DNA from: Microbacterium sp. | GTDB taxonomy: Bacteria > Actinomycetota > Actinomycetes > Actinomycetales > Microbacteriaceae | Direction of reading: 5' to 3' | Assembly (NCBI GenBank): GCA_002703245.1 | Contig: NZTV01000062.1 | Span: 1-64,000 of the forward strand | DNA: 64,000 nt | Shown here: one piece after another, positions 4,730-30,407 of the stretch | How the letters are laid out: every line of letters starts with the position of its first letter | Numbering within the stretch: position 1 is the stretch's first letter | Notes under the pieces: generated by a model | Told to the model about the DNA's origin: nothing | What the model saw: the letters and a program-made list of their open reading frames with translations, nothing else | The model's database searches: none | Position numbers and translations under genes: made by a program

Positions 4730-5575
4730 GTGCGTATCCGGCTCGACATCGCCTATGACGGCACGCATTTCCGCGGGTGGGCGCGCCAGCCCGGGCTCCG
4801 CACCGTGCAGGGGGAGATCGAGGGGGCCCTCGCGCGCGTGCTCGGGGGAGAACCGCGTCTGGTGGTCGCCGGCCGGACCGACGCCGGCGTGCACGCGTCG
4901 GGCCAGGTCGCCCACGTCGACCTCGACCCGGTGCAGACCGAGCGGATGCTCTCCGGTCGGGCACGCACACCGCACGGCGACCCGGTCGGGGTACTCGCGG
5001 GTCGGCTACGGGGGGTGCTCGGCGCGTACTCCGATGTGACCGTGATCGCGACCCGCGCGGCACCGGAGGGCTTCGACGCGCGCTTCTCGGCGGTGTGGCG
5101 TCGCTACGCCTACCGGATCGCCGACCACGAGAGCGGATACGACCCGCTCGAGCGGTTGCGCACCACATCGGTCCGGGCCGCCCTCGACGCCGACGCGATG
5201 GACGAGGCGGCGCGATCCCTCGTCGGGCTCCATGACTTCGCGGCCTATTGCAAGCCGCGGGAGGGGGCGACCACTATCCGCACCCTGCTGGAATTCGATT
5301 GGGCCCGCGACGACGACGGCGTTCTCGTGGCGAACGTGAAGGCGGATGCGTTCTGCCACAGCATGGTGCGCGCGCTCGTCGGCGGGTGCGTCGCGGTCGG
5401 GGAGGGGCGACTGTCGGTGCCGGATCTGGCGGCGATCCGCGACGGTCTCGCGCGCGTTCCCGAGGTGAAGGTGCTCGCGGCACGCGGTCTGACCCTCACC
5501 GGGGTGGGGTATCCGGCCGATGATCTGTTGGCCGCCCGGGCGGTGCAGACCCGAAACCGTCGCGACGTCGACTGA
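4730..5575 (+). CDS. truA: tRNA pseudouridine(38-40) synthase TruA
   Basis: Converts uridines 38, 39 and 40 in the tRNA anticodon arm to pseudouridine. The 281-residue protein begins with the family signature DIAYDGTHFRGWARQ and carries the catalytic aspartate in AGRTDAGVHA (Asp51); further blocks are RYAYRI, FCHSMVRALVGG and LTGVGYP. Length and motifs are normal. In many actinobacteria truA directly follows rplQ; here about 4.3 kb with three unrelated genes lies between them. Start GTG follows a leaderless -10 box. Confidence 0.97.
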   Translation: MRIRLDIAYDGTHFRGWARQPGLRTVQGEIEGALARVLGGEPRLVVAGRTDAGVHASGQVAHVDLDPVQTERMLSGRARTPHGDPVGVLAGRLRGVLGAYSDVTVIATRAAPEGFDARFSAVWRRYAYRIADHESGYDPLERLRTTSVRAALDADAMDEAARSLVGLHDFAAYCKPREGATTIRTLLEFDWARDDDGVLVANVKADAFCHSMVRALVGGCVAVGEGRLSVPDLAAIRDGLARVPEVKVLAARGLTLTGVGYPADDLLAARAVQTRNRRDVD

Positions 5576-25913: not shown

Positions 25914-26306
25914 TCAGACGAAGCGGTCCTCGACGGCCGCGCGGATGTGGTCGCGAAGCTCGCGCACGCCCTCCAGGCCCCACGATTCCGGGTTGGGGAA
26001 CTGCCACGTGACGAGCTCTCCGGCGACCTCGCCCGGCAGGTCGAGGCCCGGCTTCATCGTCACGACGACATCGGCTTCGGCCAGCAGCTCGGCGGTGACC
26101 GGACGCGGGCTCGCGGCGGAGGTGTCGATGCCGAGCTCACCGAGGGCCTCGGCGACCTCGGGGCTGATGCTCTCGCCGGGGGCCACTCCTGCGGAGGTCG
26201 CGTCGTAGCGGTCGCCGGCGAGGTGGTCGAGCAGATGGGCACCCAGCTGGGAGCGCCCGGCGTTGTGCGTGCAGATGAACAGGACGACGGGGCGCTCGGC
26301 GCTCAT
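25914..26306 (-). CDS. arsC: Arsenate reductase / low-molecular-weight phosphatase family
   Basis: 130 residues with the P-loop CTHNAGRSQ (Cys12, CX5R). The second and third cysteines of thioredoxin-coupled ArsC are absent (the loop reads VVTMKPGLDLPGEV), so if it reduces arsenate it should use mycothiol as in the Corynebacterium single-Cys enzymes; a plain low-molecular-weight phosphatase remains possible. RBS GGAGGT. Its ATG overlaps the final TGA of the flavoprotein gene upstream (ATGA), so the two form one unit. Confidence 0.82.
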   Translation of the reverse strand: MSAERPVVLFICTHNAGRSQLGAHLLDHLAGDRYDATSAGVAPGESISPEVAEALGELGIDTSAASPRPVTAELLAEADVVVTMKPGLDLPGEVAGELVTWQFPNPESWGLEGVRELRDHIRAAVEDRFV

Positions 26307-27694
26307 CGGGTGACCTCCAGAGGGTGGGTGGCGTGTTCGCGCGACCACGCCTGGGTGGCAGCCTGCACGGCATCCCATGGCGAGCCGAGCGGCGGGGTGT
26401 AGGACAGGTCGAGTTCGCCGACCTGGTCGACGGTGAGTCCGGCGTACAGCGCGGTGGCGTAGGTGTCGACGCGTTTGGCGGTCTCGGTGCCCAGGCGTCC
26501 GGTGAGTTGGGCGCCGAGGAGGCGTCCGGTCTCGGTGTCGCCGGTGATGCGGAAGTGGATCTGTTGCGCGCCGGGCTAGTAGCGCTTGTGGTCGTCGGCG
26601 GCTGAGGACGAGGTGGCGGGGTGGAACCCGTCCGACTCGGCCTCGTGCTGCCGGAGGCCGGTGCGGGCGGCGACGACATCGAAGACCTTGACGACCTGGG
26701 TCCCCACCGACCCGGCGAAGCGGGCGGCGCCGCCGACGGCGTTCTCGCCGGCGACCCGGCCCTGCTTGTGCGCGGTCGTCCCGAGCGGCAGGTAGGTCGT
26801 GCCGAGGAGGCGATGGTGGGTGATGACGCCGTCGCCGGCGGCGAAGACATGGGGCAGGCCGGTGCGCATGTGTTCGTCGACGACGACCGCGCGACCCGCG
26901 CCGAGCCGGGCGCCGGCGGACTCCAGGAGAGCGGTGTGGGGTCGCACGCCCACCACGACGAGCACGAGGTCGGCGGTGTGGGTGACCTCCTCGCCCTCCC
27001 GTTCGGCGTGCACCGTCAGTCCCGTGCCGGTCTTCTCGACGCCGCCCACCGCGGTACCCGTGTGCACGTCGACGCCGTGGGCGACGAGTTCGTCGTGGAC
27101 GGTCGCGGCCAGTTCGGGGTCGAGGGTCGAGAGCACCTCCGGCCCGCGCTGCAGTTGCGTGACGCGCATTCCGCGGCCGCGGAAACCCTCCGCCATCTCG
27201 AGGCCGACGTAGCCGGCGCCGACGATGATCGCCGAGGCCGGGCCGCGGCGCTCCAGGTCGGCGTCGAGGGCGAACGTGTCGCCCATAGAGTGGATGACGT
27301 GCACGCCGTCTTCGGGGCCGAGCCGGTCCATTCCGGCGATCCCCGCGAACGAGGGTAGCGCCCCGGTCCCGACGACCAACTCGTCGTAGTCGATCGTGGT
27401 CGGACCGTCGTGATCCGTGACCGTGAGTCGACGCGCGGCGACGTCGATCCCGGTCGCGAGGGTGTTCAGGCGCAGCCGCATCCCGGTGGCCTCGAGATCG
27501 GCGTGGGTGCAGTGGGCGAGGGACTGCCACGGCTGCACGTCGCCGGAGAAGTAGTACGGGATGCCGCAGATCGAGTAGTTCGGGTACTGATCGGCGACGA
27601 CGACGGTCACGTCGACATCCGGGTCGAACTCGCGGGCGCGCAGCGCCGCGGAGATCCCGGCGTCGCTGCCGCCGACGGCGACGAGGTGCGTCAT
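26303..27694 (-). pseudogene. FAD-dependent pyridine nucleotide-disulfide oxidoreductase with an in-frame TAG
   Basis: CoA-disulfide reductase / NADH oxidase-like flavoprotein. FAD loop VAVGGSDAGISAAL, redox Cys43 in SICGIPYYFSGDV, NAD loop IIVGAGYVGLEMAEGF and FAAGDG are intact. Codon 373 is TAG (bases 26576-26578): the frame reads ADDHKRY-stop-PGAQQIHFRI and then continues without shift through a complete C-terminal dimerisation domain (TGRLLGAQLTGR, LDLSYTPPLGSPWDAV) to TGA at 26303. Family members usually have Tyr-Tyr-Pro here, so TAC to TAG is the likely change. Without readthrough a 372-residue protein lacking the dimer domain results. RBS AAAGGG. Confidence 0.88.
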
Positions 27695-27755: not shown

Positions 27756-27914
27756 CTACGCGGGCAGGTTCATCATCGTGTAGGCGATGAGGATCGCGCC
27801 GACGGCGGCGAGGACGAGCATCGCCCAGACCGGGAGGCCTCCCACCTCCTGCCGGTACCAGGGCGTGAGAGCGCGTGAACGGCGGCGTGAGCGGCGTGTG
27901 CGACGAGCGTGCAT
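27756..27914 (-). CDS. 52-residue single-pass membrane protein
   Basis: Short frame MHARRTRRSRRRSRALTPWY, then RQEVGGLPVWAMLVLAAVGAILIAYTMMNLPA. The N-terminus carries ten Arg in the first 14 residues, followed by one hydrophobic helix of about 20 residues, so the basic end should face the cytoplasm. RBS GGGAGA lies 8 bases before the ATG. No family recognised. It lies upstream of the flavoprotein-arsC pair on the same strand with a 61-base gap. Confidence 0.55.
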   Translation of the reverse strand: MHARRTRRSRRRSRALTPWYRQEVGGLPVWAMLVLAAVGAILIAYTMMNLPA

Positions 27915-28062: not shown

Positions 28063-28638
28063 TCACACGACGAGGCTGCGGGCGGTGCTGATCAGGCGCA
28101 CCGCCTCCTCAGGGGAGATGCGGGCGAGCGCGTAGGCTCCGACGACCAGACCGGTCACGGTCGCGGAGGTGCGCTCGCGTTCGGCGGGGTCGTCGTGGGG
28201 GCGACGTGCGCGGATGCCGCGGTCGATGGCGTGGCGCAGTTCGGCCCGGTAGGCGGTGATGACCTCCGCGACGTCGGCGTCGTGCGCGAGCGGGGAGCCG
28301 GCGGTGTTGATGAGCAGGCATCCGTTCGCGGCGGCGGGGGTGTCGGCGCGTGCGAAGACCTGCGCGAGGCCGGAGAGGTAGTCGGCCAGTGCGCCGGAGG
28401 GCACCGGGTCGTGCAGGAGCGGACGCAGGCGCGGACGCACGATCTCGTCGAGGTAGCTCTGCACGGCAGCGTCGAAGAGACCGCGTTTGGAGCCGAACGC
28501 GTGGTAAAGACTGGACCGCCCCAGTCCGGTCGCGTGCTCGAGGTCGGGGATCGCGACCGCCTCGAACCCCAGCCGCCAGAACACCTCGCGCGCGGCGCGG
28601 ACGGCGGTGTCGCGGTCGAACGTGGCCGGTCTTCCCAT
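28063..28638 (-). CDS. TetR family repressor
   Basis: 191 residues. N-terminal helix-turn-helix (DTAVRAAREVFWRLGFEAVAIPDLEHATGLGRSSLYHAFGSKRGLFDAAV) and a C-terminal ligand domain of the type with NGCLLINTAGS, known from regulators of reductases responding to electrophiles or quinones. Divergent from the oxidoreductase at 28763 with two operator-like repeats between them, so it probably represses both. RBS GAGGGG. Confidence 0.9.
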   Translation of the reverse strand: MGRPATFDRDTAVRAAREVFWRLGFEAVAIPDLEHATGLGRSSLYHAFGSKRGLFDAAVQSYLDEIVRPRLRPLLHDPVPSGALADYLSGLAQVFARADTPAAANGCLLINTAGSPLAHDADVAEVITAYRAELRHAIDRGIRARRPHDDPAERERTSATVTGLVVGAYALARISPEEAVRLISTARSLVV

Positions 28639-29849: not shown

Positions 29850-30407
29850 ATGGCTGGTCAGAGCCGAAAGGCGACCCTGCAGGACATCGCCGACATCGTC
29901 GGCATGAGCCGGATGTCCATCTCGCGCATCCTGAACGGGAAACAGCAGACCTCTCCGGAGATGGACGAGCGCATCCGCGAGGCGATCGTCGAGACCGGTT
30001 ACCGGATGAATCGTGCCGCGAGCGCCCTCCGTCAGGGGCGCGCGCTGCCCACCGTGGGCCTTGTCGTCGAGCGCTTCACCGACACGTCGTGCAGCGCGAT
30101 CGCCGAGGCTGCGGCCGACGTGGCGGACGAACGCGGTGCGGTACTCGTCGTGGTGCGCGAGCGGCCAGGGGGTGGGGTCGAGGCGCTGGTGTCCCGCAAC
30201 GTGGACGGCGTCCTCGTCTGCGACCGTGACGAGACCGCGAAGGCGTGGAACGTCGATCGCCCCGTGGTGGCGGTGGGCGGTGGAGCCGGCGCCCTCCCGC
30301 AGGAACTCGGTGTCGCCGCCCGTGCGGCGACGGCGCACCTGTTCGAGCTGATCAACGGGGCCGCCGCCGAGATCTCGGGAGAAGGCGCCGCGCGCGACAC
30401 GGTCTAG
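29850..30407 (+). CDS. Short LacI-type regulator
   Basis: 185 residues. A complete LacI DNA-binding domain and hinge helix (TLQDIADIVGMSRMSISRILNGKQQTS, YRMNRAASALRQGR) followed by only the first subdomain of the periplasmic-binding-like ligand domain (LPTVGLVVERF, VDGVLVCDRD, RPVVAVGG). It ends about 150 residues earlier than normal members (330-340). No reading frame downstream supplies the rest, so either a truncated gene or a natural short form. Confidence 0.7.
   Translation: MAGQSRKATLQDIADIVGMSRMSISRILNGKQQTSPEMDERIREAIVETGYRMNRAASALRQGRALPTVGLVVERFTDTSCSAIAEAAADVADERGAVLVVVRERPGGGVEALVSRNVDGVLVCDRDETAKAWNVDRPVVAVGGGAGALPQELGVAARAATAHLFELINGAAAEISGEGAARDTV

Follow-up and report, generated by a model that had tools for sequence, protein, structure and literature searches.

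A flavoprotein gene in the 64,000-nucleotide stretch of Microbacterium DNA analysed here (the window) carries an in-frame TAG at codon 373. The TAG is probably a nonsense mutation, recent and private to this accessory gene of the CoA-disulfide reductase (CoADR)/NADH-oxidase type. On the reverse strand, the open reading frame runs from an ATG at 27,694 to the TAG (26,576–27,694; 372 amino acids), and the TAG itself (26,576–26,578, read from 26,578 to 26,576) falls within the dimerisation domain. The same frame then continues through 90 further sense codons of that domain (26,303–26,575) and closes with a TGA at 26,305–26,303, which overlaps the ATG of an arsC-like gene of the low-molecular-weight phosphatase family (25,914–26,306, reverse strand; 130 amino acids; PF01451, E = 1e-16) by 4 nt as ATGA. 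This arrangement of stop, same-frame continuation and overlap had been described in a first-pass annotation, whose coordinates proved exact.

By its sequence, the flavoprotein is a single-cysteine pyridine nucleotide-disulfide oxidoreductase of the CoADR/NADH oxidase group (TIGR03385; PDB 6ruz, 6pfz and 8a56), with which it shares the domain order, the catalytic-cysteine motif and the dimerisation domain. The FAD- and NAD-binding domains are complete within the 372 residues before the TAG (Pfam Pyr_redox_2, E = 6.1e-51), as is the motif NYSICGIPYY, which aligns with that of relatives and holds the single conserved cysteine. When the TAG is read as X, the likeness to the group spans the full length: the best solved relative is the NADH oxidase 6ruz (E = 2.9e-74), and the alignments to the three best solved NADH oxidases or CoA reductases printed cross the TAG without interruption, with a tyrosine at that position in all three. 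The window gene departs from the group in two respects, the stop at the tyrosine position and a TIGR03385 score of 301.2 bits, below the equivalog cut-off of 578.8, so that we treat it as a relative and not as a proven CoA-disulfide reductase. The equivalent tyrosine in CoADR presumably has a role in catalysis, a point that we did not use as evidence. The C-terminal dimerisation domain is present in the DNA but lies mostly behind the TAG and is predicted to be largely absent from the protein that is made; the continuation matches Pfam Pyr_redox_dim from position 47 of 110 in the profile (E = 4.7e-5; 24 bits, against a cut-off of 25.3).

First, the stop is confined to this gene among the relatives compared. 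They were gathered by scanning named genomes, which gave 79 loci including remote ones, and by searching the genus, where the N-terminal part matched 44 of 198 genomes and the C-terminal part 87 of 366, the window's own genome being among the matches in both; only the best matches were read as loci, giving 28 new relatives for the N-terminal part and 29 for the C-terminal part. Loci with matching coordinates in the scan of named genomes and the genus search with the N-terminal part (for example L018 of Microbacterium aoyamense with G011, and L019 of Microbacterium sp. AG1240 with G139) assign the window's genome to Microbacterium. A search of plasmid DNA (125 records) was used for context only. 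An initial reading of 109 best hits, among them repeats and three hits in the window's own genome, gave TAC in 86, TAT in 10, TTC in 3, and ATT, CGC and TAG in one each; 7 hits did not reach the codon, and the sole TAG was the window gene itself. A codon alignment of 76 distinct full-length relatives gave TAC in 69, TAT in 6 and TTC in 1, that is, a tyrosine in 75 and a stop in none of the 76. Nearly all C-terminal matches in the genus search had open frames of at least 458 codons, unbroken except in partial copies. Stops flagged within the match in two further genomes (G219 and G259) turned out on inspection to lie in intact genes and so lend the nonsense mutation no support, and an asterisk in the alignment of another relative (L010) marks its natural end. 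On these sequence comparisons the TAG is private to the window gene.

One remote homologue (about 37% identity) was left out of the codon alignment because its frame is ended by an upstream TGA of its own. In this gene, from the metagenome-assembled genome of Actinomycetes bacterium isolate HOT.MB2.50 (L078), the in-frame TGA (5,124–5,126) stands exactly at the catalytic cysteine. It is likely to encode selenocysteine, since the genome has a selB gene scoring over its cut-off and since CoA-disulfide reductase/NADH oxidase is listed as a selenoprotein family (PMC9312934, PMC1794560); a hairpin behind this TGA was no stronger than in shuffled sequences (z = 0.53).

Second, the frame behind the TAG appears to be real coding sequence that has kept its constraint. 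The ratio of nonsynonymous differences in the C-terminal part to those in the N-terminal part averages 0.94 between the window gene and the 71 relatives that fell within the chosen range of identity, compared with 0.957 over 2,149 pairs among the relatives themselves, 30 of the 71 taxa having a lower mean. We looked in this codon alignment for relaxed selection behind the TAG and found none; the continuation evolves no faster than the part that precedes it. All 24 near-invariant columns of the C-terminal part are kept, and these 24 codons, with 52 nonsynonymous sites and zero changes, would limit unconstrained evolution to roughly the last 14–18% of the branch, a rough bound in which the branch is taken as half the pairwise synonymous distance. 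The continuation had been called perfectly conserved, which describes these columns well but not the stretch as a whole, whose identity to the 20 nearest relatives listed is only 76–89%. That no other lesion is visible holds as far as we tested, with 81 of 82 near-invariant columns kept before the TAG.

Intact constraint of this kind means that the TAG is young, or is not real, or is rendered harmless by readthrough, and the constraint test alone cannot choose among the three. What speaks for a nonsense mutation in the sequences is the combination of a sense codon in 76 of 76 relatives with no loss of constraint on either side of the TAG; the missing decay behind the stop is equally expected from a consensus error or from a gene that is read through.

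Third, the genome in which the TAG lies uses TAG as an ordinary stop. A scan by codon usage covered 716 kb, made up of the window and 40 other stretches (24% of the assembly; a smaller first pass covered 389 kb), and scored 547 stops that end coding-like frames: 469 TGA, 57 TAG and 21 TAA. Behind 21 of these stops the frame runs on in coding-like fashion, and in 20 of the 21 a start codon occurs within 0–23 codons, as expected of a next gene. The window TAG is the only scored stop with a coding continuation and no nearby start, there being no ATG, GTG or TTG in frame for 69 codons. The scan is a heuristic that covered well-scoring genes, and in it a disrupted gene would count as a next gene if an ATG, GTG or TTG stood in frame soon after its stop. 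The amber identity of the codon needs no special reason, because TAG results from 930 of the 1,415 single substitutions (66%) by which 14 window genes could gain a stop.

These observations bear most directly on functional amber readthrough, in which a useful share of ribosomes would decode the TAG as an amino acid and complete the full-length protein. The fully constrained frame behind the TAG speaks for such readthrough, and bacteria show a basal level of readthrough that in E. coli can become high at certain sites (PMC11126739). Readthrough of E. coli reporters follows the order TGA > TAG > TAA, and the figure of 79% given there belongs to a single TGA reporter (PMC11126739). As readthrough at some level is common in E. 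coli reporters (PMC11126739), small amounts of full-length protein may plausibly be made here without serving a function. Against a functional role, however, stand the absence of TAG from all 76 relatives, the use of TAG to end ordinary genes and the lack of a second gene of this type in the 716-kb sample. The machinery points the same way: release factor RF1 is present (468.5 bits, over the cut-off of its profile), and none of 42 tRNA hits in the assembly has a CUA anticodon, with the proviso that the assembly is 84% complete and a suppressor tRNA could lie in the rest. (ARAGORN named 41 of the tRNA hits; the remaining one, at the end of a contig, is a fragment with an anticodon read by eye as GGU.) The one 81-nt stretch of RNA folded around the TAG did no better than shuffled sequence, with z = −0.35 and 73 of 200 shuffles folding at least as well. 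Stop usage, RF1 and the tRNA hits thus lend no support to recoding or suppression, and we regard functional readthrough as very unlikely. Its most elaborate version, in which an amber codon at the conserved tyrosine is usefully decoded and rations dimerisation of the arsenic-linked flavoprotein as a recent, lineage-specific switch in one species, strikes us as barely credible.

A different way for the gene to remain useful would be for the 372-residue protein to work as a short form, or for the two parts to act as separate chains. The completeness of the FAD- and NAD-binding domains and of the catalytic-cysteine motif within the 372 residues is compatible with a short form, but 76 of 76 relatives encode one full-length chain, and the stretches with only the C-terminal part that occur in two other Microbacterium genomes (G200 and G314) look to us like remnants. 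The 69 codons without a start codon also tell against it, and a split gene with an internal restart was rejected on the same ground. We consider this explanation highly improbable.

A more serious competitor to the nonsense mutation is an error of consensus or assembly, or a minor allele caught in the draft consensus, which would leave the organism's own gene intact. The sequence comes from a draft assembly (3.03 Mb in 120 contigs), and an error would likewise show itself as a stop with no decay behind it; an error explains the data as well as a mutation does, except for its rarity. To expect one error-made stop in 716 kb takes about 7e-5 consensus errors per base, whereas the expected number of such stops is 0.14 at 1e-5 errors per base and 0.014 at 1e-6, and the 716-kb sample holds no second one. 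An error seems to us possible though less likely than a mutation, and the base is probably present in the organism's DNA. Of the three readings offered in the first-pass annotation, a nonsense mutation and a sequencing error both still stand, whereas amber readthrough is left without support.

The surroundings of the gene are consistent with its being accessory. Elsewhere, to judge from gene content, the flavoprotein gene usually sits in arsenic operons: queries from a Rathayibacter plasmid for ArsR, aquaporin, ArsT or arsC found at least one match in 60 of 62 loci of relatives, the two loci without any match (L064 and L068) both being short contigs. Part of the ArsR2 query resembles arsC-like genes, and for that reason some of its matches lie on those genes. 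An arsC gene directly follows the flavoprotein gene in 33 of the 76 distinct relatives, with a 4-nt NTGA overlap in all 33; no arsC lies within 500 nt in 42, and in 1 the sequence ended. The window pair thus resembles the flavoprotein–arsC pair of actinobacterial arsenic operons, such as those on plasmids of Rathayibacter festucae and Frondihabitans sucicola, in gene order and in the overlap. The name arsC is suggested here by PF01451 membership and gene context, the best NCBIfam arsenate reductase model scoring 47.7 bits, far below its cut-off of 215.

Unlike those operons, the window has an interrupted flavoprotein gene, flanks that are unique among the loci compared, and no tblastn match to ArsR, aquaporin or ArsT anywhere in its 64 kb; with only the flavoprotein–arsC pair found, remnants of the usual arsenic operon were sought with these three queries and rejected. 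Upstream, on the same strand, lie a putative small gene (27,756–27,914; 52 amino acids with one hydrophobic stretch) and a gene for a TetR-family regulator (28,063–28,638; TetR_N, E = 5.6e-11, scored with a longer start), neither of which had a match in the relatives' loci compared; the window's neighbour genes in general are absent from those loci, many of which extend no more than about 1.5 kb past the flavoprotein gene. Further along, a short frame at 29,850–30,407 resembles, by eye, a LacI-type regulator shortened to 185 amino acids. The adjoining conserved alanine dehydrogenase–AsnC pair occurs in the six other genomes of the genus, of 119 searched, that have a close AsnC, and in those six the flavoprotein pair does not stand beside it. 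The window's own genome has six arsC-family genes, three of them on one contig (C41), and matches to the SBF and MIP families on other contigs. On contig C41, several arsC-family genes are clustered together with a gene that is ArsR-like by eye (L216); given this cluster, the genome has other arsenic-type genes.

The flavoprotein gene is also broken in other members of the genus. Four genomes were inspected because they showed partial copies: in G280 the first 264 residues are missing and the frame changes, while the arsC-like gene is intact; in G096 the N-terminal part is missing and the frame is broken near the end; and G200 and G314 retain only C-terminal stretches of about 70–85 residues. 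Similar partial matches appeared in G002 and G088 in the genus search with the C-terminal part. We read the partial copies, from their sequences, as probable remnants. The broken or remnant copies in these four Microbacterium genomes are those at L226, L227, L228 and L229, and the arsC-like gene beside the copy in L227 is intact. Because the pair stands without the usual arsenic genes and because copies are broken or remnant in all four genomes inspected for partial copies, the gene looks dispensable.

If the TAG is a nonsense mutation, RF1 would end translation at codon 373 and the 372-residue product, lacking most of the dimerisation domain, would probably be inactive, judging from the family. 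The arsC-like gene is intact. Its translation may be weakened if coupling is lost or through polarity, but arsC expression need not disappear, because a GGAGGT, its likely ribosome-binding site, lies just upstream of its ATG (26,313–26,318, reverse strand).

The simplest account is that an everyday mutation broke the gene or that the assembly is wrong at this base, with no special decoding involved. It resembles an ordinary young nonsense pseudogene in having one private stop and no further decay, in an accessory gene that is also broken in other members of the genus; we found nothing that sets it apart from one, and consensus error remains the rival. Its main value is as an instructive negative: a fully conserved frame after a stop suggests recoding, but set against relatives and other parts of its genome the stop proves single and private. 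For the genus, the broken copies suggest that Microbacterium has lost the arsenic-linked flavoprotein more than once, in one case (G280) while keeping an intact arsC-like gene next to it.
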